Positions 41,600 to 48,280 of a stretch of 64,000 bases of DNA are shown piece by piece. The stretch's first letter is position 1. Each line of letters starts with the position of its first letter. The translations under genes were made by a program, and so were the position numbers. Below the pieces are notes generated by a model, which ran no database searches, was not told where the DNA came from, and was given only the letters and a program-made list of their open reading frames with translations. Source of the DNA: Acidobacteriaceae bacterium (GTDB lineage: Bacteria; Acidobacteriota; Terriglobia; Terriglobales; Acidobacteriaceae); NCBI GenBank assembly GCA_031296325.1, contig JARLFY010000018.1, positions 1-64,000 of the forward strand, in the 5' to 3' direction.

Positions 41600-41712
41600 A
41601 ATCTCTTCTCGAATTACTGTAGACCCTAAATTATTTGTCATTCCGTAGCGCAAGCGGAGGTATCTGCTTATGGCTCGCTCTACGACGGTCTACACTATTA
41701 CCGAAAATTCAC
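41600..41712 (+). repeat. Complete palindromic element, type A, overlapping the radical-SAM gene end
   Basis: Ends TCTCGAATTACTGTAGACC (41608) and GGTCTACACTATTACCGAAA (41687) are inverted copies; the core TGTCATTCCGTAGCGCAAGC to TATCTGCTT is 41636-41669. The right end supplies the last four codons and stop of the gene at 41698. Confidence 0.8.
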
Positions 41713-42828
41713 TACGTTCTCATTCGATGCAAGATGGATCTGCTCCAGTCCTGCGGCAGGCTTCGCTTTGGGATGAGCCATCATGCCAGCGATAACCACT
41801 CCAGTGCGCGTATAGGATTTCTCGCAGTCCAGACTCGAGGGTCCGCGCATGTTCCCTTCCATGTAGGCCAGCCCGGGACAGCGCGCGCAGGTTCCACTGT
41901 TATGCGAACAGGTGGAACAGACCGGAAGATCGTTCACCGTAATCGAACGAACCTCGTTCATCTGCGGCGAGTGCTTCCAGATGTCGATGAATTTGGTTGT
42001 ACGCAGGTTTCCCGTGGGCAGAGGGAATTGCACGCAGGGATACACGTCGCCATACGGCGAAATGTAGCAAAAGGTGTGCCCAGCGCTGCATGGCAACATC
42101 TCCATGGCGTCCTCTTCGGCAAGCGGCCCCTTGGGGAGGTCACAGAACTCTTCCGGACTGGTTCCCAGAAGCGAGGGATCGCGAAACACCTGCTGTAGTT
42201 CGGTTTGACCAATGCCCAGATTCAAAATCGAGCGATCGCCATCCATCATTGGAGTAATGGTTGGATCGACCGTGTACTGCGCGCCGAATTCAGCGGCCAG
42301 TTCCTGTACTCCGGTATAGTCCTGAAAATTGTTACGCATCAAGACATTGGCGAAGATTACTTTGACCCCGCGCTCCGCCAGAAGTCTGGCCCCGGCCAGC
42401 GATCTCTTGAACGAACCCGGCAGTTTGCTGATCGCGTCATGCACCTCTGGACGATGCGAGTAGACGCTGATCTGAACCGATTCCGGAGCCAGAGCCTTGA
42501 TTCGATCGGCCTCTGCTTTGTGGATCATCACCGCATTCGTCTTCAGCTTGAGGCAGAACATCAGGCTGCGAGCGTGCTGGGCAATCTCGAAGAAATCGCG
42601 GCGCATCAAAATCTCTCCGCCGCTGAGGGTCAGGAAGAACACGCCGGCCTCGGCCATTTGGTCGAGCAGATCCTTGATCTCGGCAGTGTTCATCTCGCCG
42701 TGATCGTCGTGATCCAGATAGCAATGCACACAGCGCTCGTTGCAGCGATAGGTCAGGTCGAGTTGAACGCCGAGCGGAACGCCCAGCCGCTGGGCCGTGT
42801 TGCTCATCTCACGAATAAGCTGAGTCAT
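41698..42828 (-). CDS. SPASM radical-SAM peptide maturase
   Basis: 376 residues. LDLTYRCNERCVHCYLD contains CxxxCxxC (Cys29, 33, 36) for the SAM-binding 4Fe-4S cluster, with LTLSGGEILMR as the SAM-binding GGE motif. The C-terminal SPASM domain has CSAGHTFCYISPYGDVYPCVQFPLPTGNLR, IWKHSPQM, VCSTCSHNSGTCARCPGLAYMEGN and a last Cys in LDCEKSY, enough for auxiliary clusters. It resembles PqqE/AlbA-type enzymes that crosslink or form thioethers in ribosomal peptides. GGAGG 5 nt before ATG at 42828 sets the start. Last gene of the minus-strand cluster with pqqD-like, kinase, peptidase and precursor; its C-terminal VNFR is encoded by a palindromic element. Confidence 0.92.
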   Translation of the reverse strand: MTQLIREMSNTAQRLGVPLGVQLDLTYRCNERCVHCYLDHDDHGEMNTAEIKDLLDQMAEAGVFFLTLSGGEILMRRDFFEIAQHARSLMFCLKLKTNAVMIHKAEADRIKALAPESVQISVYSHRPEVHDAISKLPGSFKRSLAGARLLAERGVKVIFANVLMRNNFQDYTGVQELAAEFGAQYTVDPTITPMMDGDRSILNLGIGQTELQQVFRDPSLLGTSPEEFCDLPKGPLAEEDAMEMLPCSAGHTFCYISPYGDVYPCVQFPLPTGNLRTTKFIDIWKHSPQMNEVRSITVNDLPVCSTCSHNSGTCARCPGLAYMEGNMRGPSSLDCEKSYTRTGVVIAGMMAHPKAKPAAGLEQIHLASNENVVNFR

Positions 42829-42894
42829 GGCGCCTCCCTTTGTCACTACGAGGATCTGATTGAAATCCGTGGCCCGTATCGCGATGCAGAGAAA

Positions 42895-43191
42895 TTATTG
42901 CGCGTCCACAATGGGTGCATTGGAGACCTTCAGAATGCCATGCTCTTCCAACCCTGCGACCAGTTCCTCGGCATCGCGCAAGGCGACCGCCGGATCCACA
43001 TCGAACTCCGCGCAGAGCTTTCCAGTCACAATATCTGCCAACGGGGTAACTCCATCGGCGGCCTGCCAGATCGCGGTTGCGGTCTGGTTCAGGCTGAACA
43101 GGGTGGAGTCGCGGCCAGACATAATCATCATCTCACCGCCCAGCTTGCGCGCAGCAACGTCTTTGTTTCTAGCGATATAAATAGTGCTCAT
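42895..43191 (-). CDS. PqqD-like RiPP recognition element protein
   Basis: 98 residues. IARNKDVAARKLGGEMMIMSGRDSTLFSLNQTATAIWQAADGVTPLADIVTGKL matches the PqqD fold (winged helix), which binds the leader of a precursor peptide and presents it to a modifying enzyme. ATG at 43191 overlaps the kinase stop (ATGA) and has GGGAG 8 nt upstream. Expected to bind the YLKPAF-containing leader encoded at 44564-44728. Confidence 0.92.
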   Translation of the reverse strand: MSTIYIARNKDVAARKLGGEMMIMSGRDSTLFSLNQTATAIWQAADGVTPLADIVTGKLCAEFDVDPAVALRDAEELVAGLEEHGILKVSNAPIVDAQ

Positions 43192-44003
43192 CCAATTAAC
43201 TCCCAAATGCGTGAATCTGGAACGAAGGTCAGACGCCGAACCGGAACCGTTTGCACCAGATTGCATACGGAGTCGAAGACGTGACCCACCAATTCCGTAT
43301 CGTGGGCGAAGAAAAGCACGCTCTCCATTACTGCACGAACGGCGTCGGCCTCGCTTATTGGATCGATTCGGTTCTCCGGTCCCTGACGAAGCAGATAAAC
43401 GGCCGCCAGCGGCGCACGCACCTTGTCTCCATGCTGTGCGAGTTCCCCTGAAAACGGGGTTCCGAAGGCGATATATCCATCTCCTTCGCGGCGGATATAG
43501 GAGATTTCGTCGGTCAGCAAAGTAGCGTCCGCTGGCGCAAGCCGCGAGATTGTGGTCTTTCCGGCTCCAGAGACTCCGGCGAAGAGGAACGCCCGCCCAT
43601 TGCGCACCACGCTTGCCGAATGCACCAACAAGCCGCCCTGTTTGGCCAGAATCAGCGAATGCACGATGCGAAACGCCGCGTCGATCGCGTAGGGAGCGGC
43701 GGTCTGCCGTATGCGCCCATGGCGCAGGTCCGAATCCAGCTCAGCGTGGAAGTCTCCACGCTCCAGAACCCACCGGCCCTGCTCAAAACGAACGCTGAGA
43801 TCTTCGTCTGGATCGATTGCGCCAGAGAGGCTGGCGGAAGAAACAATCTCCACCTCAAATTTGAAGACAGGCTTTGCCGTCGGATTCACATAAACGCCGT
43901 AACGCTTCTCTAGAATCTCGACAAACTCCGGGCTGGTGGTGCGAACCAGAATCGGCATGGAACCGATTTCTACGACGACATCTTGCGCAGTTGCAGCGAT
44001 CAT
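43188..44003 (-). CDS. HPr(Ser)-kinase-like P-loop kinase of a RiPP cluster
   Basis: 271 residues. An N-terminal domain of about 110 residues precedes an HprK-type kinase domain: LLVHSASVVRNGRAFLFAGVSGAGKTTISRL with Walker A GVSGAGKT (143-150), LLTDEISYIRREGDGYIAFGTPFSGEL and EAVYLLRQG-like APLAAVYLLRQGPENRIDPI. It lacks the regulatory domain of true HprK. Homologues in lasso-peptide clusters phosphorylate a C-terminal Ser of the precursor; the precursor here ends in Ser. The ATG at 44003 overlaps the peptidase stop (TGATG). Confidence 0.9.
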   Translation of the reverse strand: MIAATAQDVVVEIGSMPILVRTTSPEFVEILEKRYGVYVNPTAKPVFKFEVEIVSSASLSGAIDPDEDLSVRFEQGRWVLERGDFHAELDSDLRHGRIRQTAAPYAIDAAFRIVHSLILAKQGGLLVHSASVVRNGRAFLFAGVSGAGKTTISRLAPADATLLTDEISYIRREGDGYIAFGTPFSGELAQHGDKVRAPLAAVYLLRQGPENRIDPISEADAVRAVMESVLFFAHDTELVGHVFDSVCNLVQTVPVRRLTFVPDSRIWELIG

Positions 44004-44491
44004 CAACCTCCCCACAGCAGAGTGTTTCTTCTTTTCAGTCTTCCCAGGCGAAGCAGGAGTCGAACGCAAAGTTCCGAGCGTTGCAAGATTCGGGATACGA
44101 CGCCATTTCTCCAAACGGGAGTGAGGGCGACCGGACGACCGTCTCGGATGATGGAGACCACCGCACCCAGAACTTCATCGCGTCGGAAAGGGAGATCGTC
44201 GTGCGGGAGCGAATCGCCCTGCGTGACGAAGAGATCGCCCCGTTGCTCAACCAATCTGTGGGCTACAAACGCCTGATTGCGATAGCACAAGACCTGTTCG
44301 CCGGGAAGAAGTTGCTCCGCGCATTGCTTGCGAACGGTAAGAATATCTCCAGGCCACACCGAGGGGAGCATACTGGTTCCCGTGACCTTCAAACGGACTT
44401 CTCCGAATTGGCGGAGAGCTTCGACCGCCAGATCACGCTTGGCTGCCTCGTGAACCTCTCCGACCCGATCCATCGAATTACATCTTTCCAT
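44003..44491 (-). CDS. S24/S26 signal-peptidase-like protease of the RiPP cluster
   Basis: About 162 residues. VTGTSMLPSVWPGDILTV has the nucleophile Ser (about Ser40) in the SxMxP motif; LLPGEQVLCYRNQAFVAHRLVEQRGDLFVTQGDSLPHDD has His where E. coli leader peptidase has the general-base Lys, like the ER/SipW-type signal peptidases, and DEVLGAVVSI closes the core. No clear N-terminal membrane anchor; a weakly hydrophobic C-terminal stretch. It could remove the leader of the precursor. Start not certain: ATG 44491 or 44473. Confidence 0.85.
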   Translation of the reverse strand: MERCNSMDRVGEVHEAAKRDLAVEALRQFGEVRLKVTGTSMLPSVWPGDILTVRKQCAEQLLPGEQVLCYRNQAFVAHRLVEQRGDLFVTQGDSLPHDDLPFRRDEVLGAVVSIIRDGRPVALTPVWRNGVVSRILQRSELCVRLLLRLGRLKRRNTLLWGG

Positions 44492-44517
44492 CCATTCACC
44501 GCCTACGTTGCAGGTCT

Positions 44518-44549
44518 GCCCGTCCAGTGACAAGCGCCGCTGGACGGGC
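44518..44549 (-). terminator. Perfect 10-bp hairpin between precursor and peptidase genes
   Basis: GCCCGTCCAG and CTGGACGGGC with a 12-nt loop, 14 nt after the precursor stop. No T-tract follows, so it is more likely an attenuator or RNA-stabilising hairpin that lets the precursor be made in excess. Confidence 0.6.
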
Positions 44550-44563
44550 TACGACCAGCCGAA

Positions 44564-44728
44564 CTAAGACAACTTGCGGTTTGAATGGCACCCAGATTGC
44601 GTAGAGGTCACCTTTCCGCAGCTCAGAGCGCTGGTTTCAAAGACGCTCTCGAAGCGAAAAGCCGGTTTCAGATAAGGCGCCTTACTGGCTGGTTCCTGTG
44701 CGGCATTGGATTGTTCGGTCTTGTTCAT
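44564..44728 (-). CDS. Putative RiPP precursor peptide
   Basis: 54 residues. The hydrophilic leader contains APYLKPAFRFESVFET, which fits the YxxPxL(F)xxx...T pattern recognised by RiPP recognition elements. The candidate core is SALSCGKVTSTQSGC plus HSNRKLS, with Cys37, Cys47 and a C-terminal Ser54. AAGGAG ends 9 nt before ATG at 44728 (an ATG at 44734 is too close to it). It sits directly upstream of the peptidase, kinase, PqqD-like and radical-SAM genes. The exact modification is unknown: a Cys thioether and C-terminal Ser phosphorylation are inferences. Confidence 0.82.
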   Translation of the reverse strand: MNKTEQSNAAQEPASKAPYLKPAFRFESVFETSALSCGKVTSTQSGCHSNRKLS

Positions 44729-44777
44729 CGTCATAATCTCCTTCTTAGTCAGAGGCTGAAAAGCCCGTTTCCATTGC

Positions 44778-46736
44778 CTAGAACTGCGATGTCTGGATGG
44801 CGTTGAAGGCAGCGCCAGTATTCGAGGTAGAACACAGGTTCGTGGCTGTTCCGTTGAGCTGCATGAAGTACATCTGGGAGGCTCCAACCTCCGACCCGGA
44901 CGGAACCGAGTTGTCGATAACGATTCCACCGGTTCCGAAACAATTGTTCTGATTGGCCTCCGCCAGATACTGGGCATAGACGGGGGCGCCAGAACTGACG
45001 TTATAAGACAGAACGCAGATACTGCCGGTACCTTGCGCACAACTGCCAATCCCCGACTTGGCGTCCAGAATGGAAAAGAAGATGTAGTCTTTCCCGGTTG
45101 TCGTTTTGCCGCCCGAGACGGCGCATGCGCTTCCCGCACCATTACAGAACTCGGTTACCGGAGAAGGATATACCGGGTTAGTTTGGTTGATTACCGTAGA
45201 GACGGAAGTTCCCATCGCCGACGCGGCTCCAATTGGAATTCGGTAAAGAATGCCGCCGCCAGTAGCCCCGGCGTTGGCGACTACATAGAGGTTTCCGGCC
45301 ACCCCTCCGGTGGAGGAGTAATAAATGTTGTCAAAGTCGCCATCAAACAACATCATTGTGCCTGTTCCGAGAGCCTTTAATGTTCCCGAACCACTGGTAA
45401 ACGATGTGGCGAATTGATAGACGGCATTGTTACTCCCAGAATTGTGCCCAACGAAAACGTAGACTTTTCCGGCGGCGGAGTCCACCAACGGAGCGTCGTA
45501 GATTCCGTAGGTGCTGCCAGAGGCCAGACCACTCGACGTACCGCGAATAGCCCCGGAACTGGTTACAGAGTAGAGATAACCGGCAGTGCTGCCTACGAAG
45601 ATGTATCCGGTGGTCGGATCGTAAACGGGAGAGGCCAGTAACTTCGCGTTAGTACCAAGATTGAGAGGGTTCCCCTCGGCGGGGGTTCCGTTAAACACCC
45701 CTGTGAACGAGTGCAGAGTGCCACCGTCATCGCCGACCCACATCTTGTCATCCGCGTAGTCATAGTATGGCGCCGACCAGGTGTCGTTCTGCGCTACGGA
45801 CGAATACATCAGCGGGATCTGAGTCATGCAGGGAGCCGTGCAGTTGCGATAGAGAGCGAGGGTGGTATTGTTCGTGGTGGTGTTCAGGGATACTACGGAA
45901 GAGCTGGCTTTCCACTTGAGAAGCACCAGGCTGGCAGCGCTGCCGGTGGTCTGAATAAACGCCACCTGCGTACCATCCAGAGAGAGCACGGGAGAGGTCT
46001 TCACCAAGGCGCTGTTGGCGGTCGTGGAGTTGTAAGCAAAGGCGGTGTTAAAGGCCCAGTAGGTGCTGGGGACAGCTCCGCCACTCGTTCCGGCGCCGCA
46101 GCCTGTGCCAGAGGGGCCGGATGTTCCGTAGAGTTCGTTGTAGGCCAGAATCGTCGGCTGGGTCGTCGTCGCTCCCGCCGTACCCGTCGGGTAAACCACG
46201 TAATCCGAGGTGCAACTGGCGGCCGTGGTGGAGAAGTTGTTGTAGGAGAACTTTGCCGGATAGGCGTTGGGATTAACCTGCCCCGTCGTACTGATTAATT
46301 TGCTCCAGTCCTTATGGATGGCTGTCGATGTCGAGGGATCCTTTACATTTTGCAGCGGCAGGATCGGGCGCTTGGACGGATCCCTGCGCATCTGCTGTAG
46401 AGCATAACGAGTGCTGTGCAGCACGGCCTGCGATTGGGCATCCTTTTCCTTTGCTTCCTCTCCCTTCAGACCAAGCTCAGCCGCCGTTGCGGGAGCGGAA
46501 AAAACCAGGCGGTGGTGCGTCCAGTCCGTGGGTGTCCCCGTCGTTATGACTGGCTCGGACTGCCCCAGAGCCGAGACCGTCGTCGCGGTCAGCAGCAGTG
46601 CGGTCAAAAAACAATAAACTCTACGGGAGGACTTCGATCCGTTTTTGTGTTGCGGAACAGTCAGTCCAACGCTTTGCAGCGAATCGGACACCACTTCAAA
46701 TTGACTACAGGCGTTTGCGCAGAGTATAGATTCCAT
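44778..46736 (-). CDS. Secreted beta-propeller-like protein
   Basis: About 652 residues. A signal-anchor region (YCFLTALLLTATTVSALGQSE) lies some 45 residues in. The body shows repeated propeller-like blades: YYDYADDKMWVGDDGGTLHSFTGVF, SPVYDPTTGYIFVGSTAGYLYSVTSSG, APLVDSAAGKVYVFVGHN, GNLYVVANAG, reminiscent of PQQ/quinoprotein-type propellers. Rich in Ser/Thr/Gly. Its stop is 50 nt before the precursor gene on the same strand, so it may be in the same transcript. AGGGAG before ATG at 46736 favours that start over GTG at 46778. Role in the peptide pathway is unproven. Confidence 0.78.
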   Translation of the reverse strand: MESILCANACSQFEVVSDSLQSVGLTVPQHKNGSKSSRRVYCFLTALLLTATTVSALGQSEPVITTGTPTDWTHHRLVFSAPATAAELGLKGEEAKEKDAQSQAVLHSTRYALQQMRRDPSKRPILPLQNVKDPSTSTAIHKDWSKLISTTGQVNPNAYPAKFSYNNFSTTAASCTSDYVVYPTGTAGATTTQPTILAYNELYGTSGPSGTGCGAGTSGGAVPSTYWAFNTAFAYNSTTANSALVKTSPVLSLDGTQVAFIQTTGSAASLVLLKWKASSSVVSLNTTTNNTTLALYRNCTAPCMTQIPLMYSSVAQNDTWSAPYYDYADDKMWVGDDGGTLHSFTGVFNGTPAEGNPLNLGTNAKLLASPVYDPTTGYIFVGSTAGYLYSVTSSGAIRGTSSGLASGSTYGIYDAPLVDSAAGKVYVFVGHNSGSNNAVYQFATSFTSGSGTLKALGTGTMMLFDGDFDNIYYSSTGGVAGNLYVVANAGATGGGILYRIPIGAASAMGTSVSTVINQTNPVYPSPVTEFCNGAGSACAVSGGKTTTGKDYIFFSILDAKSGIGSCAQGTGSICVLSYNVSSGAPVYAQYLAEANQNNCFGTGGIVIDNSVPSGSEVGASQMYFMQLNGTATNLCSTSNTGAAFNAIQTSQF

Positions 46737-47038
46737 CAGACTGAATTTCTCCCTTTTGGCCCAGACTACAAAGAACACACAACGAGGAACTAAATTGCAT
46801 TTCGTCGCCTAATCGACTAAAAACCTTATAGGTATTCCCTGGAGGCGAAGGCCGGAGATAGACTCCTCCTCTACTCGCCTCGATTTCGGCTCTGCTTATG
46901 AGCCAGACTAGCATAGCTACGAAGCACAACTGTACTCGTTAGCAACACTTTAACGCATATCGGTATAGCTAGTACGACTTAAAGAAAAACTACCATCTCC
47001 CATATCTGCTTACAACACTTTTATGCATTACAGTAAGA
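46737..47038. promoter_or_regulatory. Divergent control region of the RiPP cluster with a direct repeat
   Basis: 302 bp between the minus-strand operon and the plus-strand nucleotidyltransferase gene. Two imperfect copies of GTTAGCAACACTTTAACGCA (46938) and GCTTACAACACTTTTATGCA (47008) lie 70 bp apart, each continuing with a match such as TA-C-GTA. They look like a regulator or promoter-element duplication. Specific -35/-10 hexamers were not assigned. Confidence 0.4.
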
Positions 47039-48280
47039 ATGAAATTGCTCTCGTTGCAGCCTTGCAGCTTTCTCTCTGTGGGCAAAATCAGAAGGAACTG
47101 GATCGTCGTGCCTGACTGCGCTGTGCCAAACTCGATCCAATTGCTTCTCCACTGCGCCCGTGGCGGCAACGCTGACCGTGATGGCGTTCGAGAGTTGGCC
47201 CGAGAGATCGCGGATTGGGATGCCCTGACCACGGCTGCGGAGTACCACGGATTAACGGCTCTGCTCTGCCGTTTACTGGAAGAGTCCTGTCCCGATCTGG
47301 TTGCGCAGGATGTGGCCAGCCTCCTCCGCAAGGACTACCGCGACTCCGCCGCGCGCAACCTGATTCTGACCTCGCAGATGTTCTCTCTGGTTGATCTGTT
47401 TCAGGCCAAGGGCGTCAACGTGCTGGCGCTCAAAGGCCCCGTTTTGGCCGAACTGCTCTATCCAGACCCCGTGCTGCGCCCTTTTTCGGATCTGGATCTT
47501 CTGGTGCGCAAGCAGGACGTGGCACACGCCTCGTCGATTCTCGCGCAGGAGGGATACGCCCTCAGTCCCCATTTGGCGCGCCTGTCGCTGCGCACTCTGC
47601 TGCGCCTCAACTACGCGTTGCTCTTCCGCCATGGACGCGGGGCGTATGTGGATCTTCAATGGGAGGTTGGCCCATCCGACTATCCCTTCCGCTTTGATAT
47701 GGAAATCCTGTGGCGCTCGTCGAGCCAGACTCGGATCGACGGGCGAGAGGTTGCATGCCTCTCGCCGGAGAGTCTGCTGCTGTATCTGTGCGTGCACGGA
47801 ACGAAACACATGTGGTCGCGTCTGCTGTGGATGGGAGATGTCGCCAGATTGGTGCGGACGCCCCTGAATTGGCCAGAAGTTTTGGCCCTCGCAGCAGAGG
47901 CAAAGTGCAGCAGGCCGCTCTTGTTGGGCCTGTTGCTGGCGCACGAATTGCTGGAGGCTCCCCTTCCCGAAGAGGTTCTGCAACTCGCTCTCTCCACTCA
48001 GGCCGTTCAATTGCGGGCAACTCAGGCGACCCGGCGACTGCTGTGTGCCCAGCCTTCCGAACCACGAAGCTGGGAGTTTACAGTCTTTAACGCTCGAATG
48101 GCGGAACGGAGTTGGGAGAAGGTGCGGCACTGCGCTTCGATGCTCAAGGCTCCAACGGAATGGGAGTTGGAAATACTGCCTCTGCCTGAGAGATTGTTCT
48201 TCCTCTACTATCCCGTGCGTCTAGCGCGGATCGCTCTAAAGTACGGATCACGCCTGACCCAGCGTCTGCCCCATAAATAA
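47039..48280 (+). CDS. NTP_transf_5-type nucleotidyltransferase family protein
   Basis: 413 residues. The diagnostic segment LALKGPVLAELLYPDPVLRPFSDLDLLV (about 129-156) carries the G and DxD (Asp151, Asp153) of the uncharacterised nucleotidyltransferase family found in exopolysaccharide and lasso-peptide clusters; LQWEVGPSDYPFRFD and LCVHGTKHMWSRLLWMGDVARLV follow. In some lasso clusters such a protein works after the HprK-like kinase to extend or decorate the phosphate. Divergent from the cluster; convergent with ribF. Confidence 0.85.
   Translation: MKLLSLQPCSFLSVGKIRRNWIVVPDCAVPNSIQLLLHCARGGNADRDGVRELAREIADWDALTTAAEYHGLTALLCRLLEESCPDLVAQDVASLLRKDYRDSAARNLILTSQMFSLVDLFQAKGVNVLALKGPVLAELLYPDPVLRPFSDLDLLVRKQDVAHASSILAQEGYALSPHLARLSLRTLLRLNYALLFRHGRGAYVDLQWEVGPSDYPFRFDMEILWRSSSQTRIDGREVACLSPESLLLYLCVHGTKHMWSRLLWMGDVARLVRTPLNWPEVLALAAEAKCSRPLLLGLLLAHELLEAPLPEEVLQLALSTQAVQLRATQATRRLLCAQPSEPRSWEFTVFNARMAERSWEKVRHCASMLKAPTEWELEILPLPERLFFLYYPVRLARIALKYGSRLTQRLPHK

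Follow-up and report, generated by a model that had tools for sequence, protein, structure and literature searches.

A gene cluster in the Acidobacteriaceae DNA analysed here (positions 1 to 64,000 of contig JARLFY010000018.1, hereafter the window, from a genome that is 88.8% complete) likely makes a ribosomally synthesized and post-translationally modified peptide (RiPP) by combining lasso-type leader recognition, phosphorylation of a C-terminal Ser, a radical S-adenosylmethionine (SAM) enzyme with a SPASM domain and a signal-peptidase-like protease. As is general for RiPPs, a short precursor is conserved beside a leader-binding protein and modifying enzymes. The original prediction had proposed a peptide-tailoring cluster, and the gene set bears this out. 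The cluster is apparently undescribed. Neither the peptide nor the secreted beta-propeller protein encoded upstream of it matches a Pfam or NCBIfam model at E values up to 0.1, and we found no description in the open-licence papers of PMC; subscription journals or preprints may hold one. The peptide family, its fixed features, its co-occurrence with the enzymes and the gene order were read directly from sequences, and from these we infer each chemical step, the cut site, the export and the role of the product. If this reading is right, two modules known from lasso peptides, the recognition of the leader and the phosphorylation of a C-terminal Ser, can be combined with a quite different core chemistry.

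The precursor belongs to a family with the consensus leader KPYxKPxxxxExVFETxAL[AST] and the consensus core C-G-K-x8-C-x6-S. Scanning the contigs of 84,980 species with four peptides gave 71 loci. Six of 105 raw peptide open reading frames (ORFs) were spurious frames and were dropped before counting, and the 99 retained gave 88 distinct cores, counted from ALxC, of which 87 end in Ser. Three peptides outside the motif filter, from loci L068, L079 and L097 (3/71; left out of the 68-locus tally below, though cluster genes are present), add two Ser ends and one non-Ser end. In total, 89 of 91 distinct cores have a terminal Ser; of the 875 other ORFs in these loci, 73 do. Cys-x9-Cys is present in 72 of the 88 cores, seven residues follow the second Cys (Cys2) in 68, and 69 cores are 18 residues long; of these 18-mers, 66 have Cys11 and all 69 have Ser18. 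Ser elsewhere in the cores is not invariant. Trp and Tyr are absent from 82/88 cores, and Asp and Glu from 73/88, the window core among them. YxxP occurs in 87/88 leaders, with Tyr at -18 relative to the first Cys (Cys1), a count partly favoured by the search pattern and the filter. The residue preceding Cys1 is A, S or T in 83/88, and Ala stands at -3. Since Ala(-3), Leu(-2), Cys1 and Lys3 were required by the filter, which also favoured YxxP, part of their invariance stems from the selection itself; no such requirement applied to residue -1, Cys2 and the terminal Ser, although the class profile search and the confirmation step used the whole peptide. Weak peptide matches were excluded as members (E 0.016-0.085 in the search among relatives, E 0.004-0.01 in the class search, E 0.39 and 1.0 in the own genome), and no enzyme set was seen at four of the loci from the search among relatives (L015-L018).

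The kinase and the peptide track each other genome by genome. Among 399 genomes of the window's class, 54 carry both, two carry one alone and 343 carry neither (Fisher test, 1e-64) at strict cut-offs (peptide E <1e-6, 55 genomes; kinase E <1e-45, 55 genomes), and 51 of the 54 best peptide-kinase pairs lie within 6 kb on one contig. A kinase match is missing from 22 loci. Sixteen of these were traced to genomes (L059, L060, L062, L067, L100 and L105 were left out; L060 and L067 share assemblies with L052 and L053), and in 15 of the genomes a full-length kinase is encoded at another site (E 1.7e-63 or lower). In seven of the 15 (G427-G433; L119-L125) it lies in a protease-kinase-PqqD-radical-SAM run; in the other eight (L126-L133, about 1.5 kb read on each side) it stands alone in six and with protease and PqqD genes in two. 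Because the kinase elsewhere lies in a full enzyme run in seven genomes, lone peptides are probably modified in trans. A single set of enzymes can act on more than one precursor in a genome. Dozens of loci and genomes combine the gene set with a homologue of the short peptide, which is more than chance and is the co-occurrence by which the original prediction was to be checked.

The predicted kinase structure (pLDDT 90.5) has a PEPCK/HPr-kinase fold. Structure comparison placed PEPCK first (Z 16.0, 4.2 Å over 238 residues; TM 0.52), and HPr kinase 1knx matched at E 1e-4 with poor superposition (TM 0.24); a sequence search of solved structures returned P-loop proteins and PEPCK only, and no HPr kinase. 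The motif H129, G144, G147, G149, K150, [ST]151, D166 and E167 (numbering from window:43191-44006) is kept in 44 to 48 of 48 aligned sequences per position. The motif of BsfK is H148, G163, G166, G168, K169, S170, D186 and D187 (PMC10368454); the spacing from His to Lys-[ST] is the same in both, and the acidic pair lies one residue nearer in our kinase. HPr kinases in lasso clusters have been described (PMC4289311), and paeninodin-type lasso kinases phosphorylate the C-terminal Ser common to such precursors (PMC9266682). The HprK-like kinase of the original prediction is thus supported by motif and fold, although its Pfam and NCBIfam scores lie under the cut-offs. We consider it quite probable that this kinase phosphorylates the invariant C-terminal Ser, as the original prediction had raised; the terminal Ser of the cores and the genome-by-genome tracking fit this, and it is the best-supported step of the pathway, with its chemistry deduced from sequence.

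Several points weigh against the overall reading of the cluster. Peptides L067 and L079 have no terminal Ser as read. Both look like broken copies: L067 has a premature stop, followed by Thr, Ser and a stop, and L079 continues past the usual end, where another frame of the same DNA gives Lys-Thr-Ser and a stop. Lax cut-offs give 61 peptide genomes and 73 kinase genomes, of which 56 are common, and the genome counts ignore relatedness, the lax matches spanning 23 of 135 genera per search. G180 has the peptide without a strong kinase match, G059 shows the reverse, and G437, the sixteenth traced genome, has only weak kinase matches. Only 30 of 68 loci have the nucleotidyltransferase close to the peptide. 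The kinase has Glu at the position of the second catalytic Asp of lasso kinases (Asp-Glu in 48/48), and BsfA, which ends in Asp, is modified by BsfK at Ser3 with the help of the RiPP recognition element (RRE) BsfB1 (PMC10368454). Since BsfK acts on Ser3, the presence of a kinase alone does not fix the site. The terminal Ser might therefore be kept for another reason, such as recognition by the radical-SAM enzyme or an exporter, and the kinase might target the PqqD protein, another Ser or another protein. The BsfK example and the Asp-to-Glu change speak for this explanation, but in the phosphorylated lasso precursors published so far, a kinase of this type acts mostly on the C-terminal Ser, and the other Ser positions in the cores are not invariant; we regard it as unlikely. 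Besides this family, 18 class genomes without a strong peptide match contain kinases of another, more distant group (E about 1e-18 to 1e-27), including G132, G150, G190, G236, G285, G288, G342, G381 and G415. A plasmid search for kinase relatives gave three weak partial matches.

C-terminal phosphorylation, the preferred reading, connects the cluster with the phosphorylated lasso clusters (paeninodin, pseudomycoidin and bsf of Bradymonas). These have a YxxP leader, a separate PqqD-type RRE and an HPr-kinase-like precursor kinase and often include a nucleotidyltransferase, as here, and the C-terminal Ser is targeted in paeninodin and pseudomycoidin. The PqqD protein of the window would hold the leader by its YxKP motif. 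The lasso leader motif YxxPxL spans -17 to -12 (PMC10368454), and the Tyr of the window family, at -18, lies near this span. Among NCBIfam models, a lasso PqqD model matches the PqqD protein best, at 31.1 bits against a cut-off of 70. The cluster differs from these systems in its radical-SAM/SPASM enzyme and S26-type protease, with no lasso cyclase or B2 peptidase found, in a CX9C core mostly without Asp or Glu, and in a kinase motif that ends in Asp-Glu and not in Asp-Asp. It might still be a derived lasso cluster, in which leader, RRE, kinase and nucleotidyltransferase belong to a phosphorylated lasso system, cyclase and B2 peptidase are supplied from another site, and the radical-SAM enzyme adds a further tailoring reaction. 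The YxxP leader, the sub-cut-off match of the PqqD protein and the lasso-kinase motif are consistent with this, as is the pairing of kinase and nucleotidyltransferase in the bsf and pseudomycoidin clusters. However, the B2-type leader peptidase domain PF13471 has no match in the window's own genome, at its 88.8% completeness, no Asn-synthetase-like lasso cyclase is among the seven cluster proteins (no genome-wide search was made), and 73 of the 88 cores have no Asp or Glu at all. We consider such a derivation very improbable. A lasso cluster as such was rejected for the B2 domain missing from the 88.8% complete genome, the missing cyclase among the cluster proteins and the lack of a ring Asp/Glu at positions 7-9 in most cores; the statement of the original prediction that this is not a standard lasso system holds.

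The radical-SAM/SPASM enzyme, whose CX3CX2C and SPASM cysteines are conserved, would modify the core. In most cores, the scarcity of Trp/Tyr and of Asp/Glu speaks against an aryl crosslink or a lasso ring, and with 82/88 cores free of Trp and Tyr, Cys is left as the likeliest site of radical chemistry. Modification at the two conserved Cys, with a thioether as the likeliest product, is a plausible proposal that we hold tentatively, as we do the radical crosslinking put forward by the original prediction. All NCBIfam scores for curated radical-SAM systems lie below the cut-offs, and these systems were rejected. Mycofactocin, pyrroloquinoline quinone (PQQ) and GeoRSP systems likewise pair a PqqD-type protein with a PqqE/MftC-like SPASM enzyme, and MftC is the best match of the radical-SAM protein; however, the maturase scores are under the cut-offs (135.9/265, 101/381.35 and 103.9/400 bits, respectively), and the variable core, the kinase and the C-terminal Ser are found here. 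Sactipeptide maturases (StsB, 104.8 bits; AlbA, 70.6 bits; SkfB model) are alike in having a SPASM enzyme and a Cys-bearing core, but the scores are far below the cut-offs, and a kinase and a nucleotidyltransferase are not known to be part of sactipeptide systems. The SynChlorMet (Scm) system has an HprK-like ScmC, which is the best NCBIfam match of the kinase, a PqqD-type ScmD and the SPASM enzymes ScmE and ScmF, but all four scores are far under the cut-offs (ScmC 42.3/125, ScmD 15.2/100, ScmE 91.7/400 and ScmF 58.8/400 bits). The Scm cassette was rejected as a parent: ScmC is above the cut-off in one of 377 genomes of the phylum of G443. The ScmC contig (10,149 bases) begins 77 bases ahead of the gene; it has a signal-peptidase-like ORF after ScmC, and no PqqD gene, radical-SAM gene or family peptide was found on it. 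For the HPr-rel-A system, the HprK-related kinase A model scored 30 bits against a cut-off of 200.

The protease would act as leader peptidase. A signal peptidase match reaches 29.1 bits (cut-off 51.85), and the conserved S41, H79, D94 and D100 (numbering from 44494) form a Ser-His-Asp set like that of archaeal and endoplasmic reticulum signal peptidases. The A, S or T before Cys1 together with Ala at -3 is presumably the pattern favoured by such enzymes. This suggests, with somewhat better than even confidence, that the protease cuts after AL[AST], before Cys1, and frees an 18-residue C-x9-C-x6-S peptide. The nucleotidyltransferase-like protein may then decorate the phosphate; this is an analogy to PsmN, which is responsible for the hexoses on the phosphoserine of pseudomycoidin (PMC9266682), and we regard it as rather doubtful. 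With its near-constant 18-residue core, the terminal Ser and the layout of one enzyme set with many precursors, the system offers a direct way to test the kinase and the role that NTP_transf_5 proteins play in RiPP clusters.

The product is likely to be exported and would act with the adjoining secreted beta-propeller. The predicted structure of this protein (pLDDT 74.7, pTM 0.85) matches many beta-propellers, including the designed Cake9, chain B of the BAM complex (presumably BamB) and YxaL. The propeller is found in 43 of the 399 class genomes, in 38/55 peptide genomes versus 5/344 others (Fisher test, 2e-34), and it tracks the peptide less strictly than the kinase does. Its conservation suggests a dedicated function of the product in soil Acidobacteriota. 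PQQ is the prosthetic group of propeller dehydrogenases. The cluster could represent a new RiPP class, in which the C-terminally phosphorylated, radical-modified peptide, instead of being a free product, serves the propeller in a similar way as a dedicated ligand or prosthetic group, and a single central set of enzymes modifies the scattered satellite precursor-propeller pairs in trans. Thirty-two of 58 listed propeller genes lie within 4 kb of a peptide, peptide-propeller pairs without adjoining enzymes occur at L053, L054, L060, L064, L084 and L085, L048 is a propeller-peptide-propeller-peptide tandem, and another secreted family (f9), with a PQQ_2-type propeller in one member, occupies the same place in eight loci. 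On the other hand, 17/55 peptide genomes have no propeller and five genomes have a propeller without the peptide, which argues against an obligate pair. Among 26 propeller genes away from peptides, the ten examined have no enzyme and no convincing peptide nearby (one ORF, E 0.02). In 8/68 loci an ABC-2 permease and no propeller stands beside the peptide, fitting a free product; propeller and permease occur together in 0/68 loci. Ten loci have no enzyme near the peptide, six of them with the propeller, and several of the pair loci end near the peptide, so that enzymes may lie beyond the contig end. We consider the ligand explanation improbable. The permease of L086 and its ATPase match ABC2_membrane and ABC_tran above the cut-offs. 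The stand-alone propeller members (L182-L191) have an N-terminal DWTHHH-like signature and no cluster genes nearby.

The genes of the window are listed in Table 1. On the minus strand, the order of transcription is secreted protein, peptide, protease, kinase, PqqD and radical-SAM, and the NTP_transf_5 gene runs in the opposite direction. The SPASM radical-SAM enzyme (PF04055 and PF13186), the PqqD protein (PF05402) and the divergent NTP_transf_5 protein (PF14907, 206.7 bits) named by the original prediction all score above the Pfam cut-offs. The S26 protease it named is supported by the conserved motif and the sub-threshold signal peptidase match, although the Pfam and NCBIfam cut-offs are missed. 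Its overlapping stops and starts were seen at two of three junctions, protease/kinase (1 nt) and kinase/PqqD (4 nt), but the PqqD gene and the radical-SAM ATG are 66 nt apart. The 54 residues it gave for the peptide are right from the second ATG, at 44728, which is better spaced behind AAGGAG than the first ATG (56 aa). Contrary to what it had proposed, the peptide does not head the run; the secreted protein gene precedes it on the same strand and stops 43 nt upstream. This propeller gene inside its interval, the likely leader-cutting role of the protease and the ABC-2 exporters of related loci were not part of that prediction.

Table 1. Genes of the cluster, with positions in the window
Feature	Position	Strand	Remarks
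Secreted beta-propeller protein, ~650 aa	44778..46736	-	Alternative start GTG 46778; hydrophobic N-terminus, propeller fold; tracks the peptide
Precursor peptide, 56 aa	44564..44734	-	Leader with YxKP and ETSALS, then core CGKVTSTQSGCHSNRKLS; belongs to the family that shares the leader motif, the two Cys and the final Ser
S26/S24-type signal-peptidase-like protease, putative leader peptidase	44003..44491	-	Sub-threshold matches; S41, H79, D94, D100 conserved
HprK-like kinase, putative C-terminal Ser kinase	43188..44003	-	PEPCK/HPr-kinase fold; H-G-G-G-K-[ST]-D-E motif
PqqD-type leader-binding protein (RRE)	42895..43191	-	PF05402, 55.7 bits (cut-off 23.4)
Radical-SAM/SPASM enzyme	41698..42828	-	Alternative start GTG at 42846; PF04055, PF13186; CX3CX2C and SPASM Cys conserved
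Divergent NTP_transf_5 nucleotidyltransferase-like protein, possible phosphate modifier	47039..48280	+	PF14907; K132, D151, D153 conserved

Two further genomes of the genus encode a relative of the peptide (69% and 54% identity), and so does one genome of another family (47%). The protease, kinase, PqqD and radical-SAM genes adjoin the peptide in all three, and the nucleotidyltransferase and secreted protein genes do so in both genus relatives. The distribution is patchy: within the genus, 3/37 genomes (G000, G017, G034) match below E 1e-6, and within the class, 61/399 genomes match at E 0.01. Within 6 kb of the peptide, the 68 loci carry a protease in 47, the kinase in 46, PqqD in 53, radical SAM in 50 and the nucleotidyltransferase in 30; in the 37 loci with 4 kb on both sides, these numbers are 30, 31, 33, 32 and 20, respectively. 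Kinase, PqqD and radical SAM are together on the peptide strand in 44/68 loci and in 30 of those 37. Other neighbours in the 68 loci are the propeller family of the window (23), the ABC-2 permease (8) and the secreted family f9 (8). The record titles of 51/71 loci name Acidobacteriota groups; the others are labelled Nevskia, Burkholderiales, Ramlibacter, Proteobacteria, Rokuibacteriota, Armatimonadota or Chthonomonadia, Fermentibacteria, Eisenbacteria, Elusimicrobia, delta proteobacterium or plain bacterium, and since most loci come from metagenome-assembled genomes, these labels may be wrong.

Some loci deviate from this arrangement. In a second one (L014, L093, L094, L096, L104, L107, L109), the order is kinase, PqqD, radical SAM, peptide and protease, and no propeller, exporter or nucleotidyltransferase match was found nearby. 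L099, L100, L101 and L105 have near-identical cores (CGKCTSGPFSQFACSTI[EQ]RNS) and no radical-SAM match within the locus; a PqqD gene, a protease and a SpoIID-domain protein (PF08486 in L101) lie alongside, about 2 kb upstream of the peptide. Three loci labelled Fermentibacteria and Eisenbacteria (L108:7998-8240, L112:7983-8240, L115:2876-3439) have cores of about 58 aa with an ACGK start, Cys 43 apart and a Ser end; they adjoin a radical-SAM gene, and the kinase is elsewhere in the genome. At L098, L110, L111, L113 and L116, large secreted f9 proteins follow the peptide, and in four of the five loci they form a tandem. Representatives from L098 have PQQ_2 and CBM96 matches and one from L116 a weak match to a propeller; four of these loci also carry a small secreted protein, f21.

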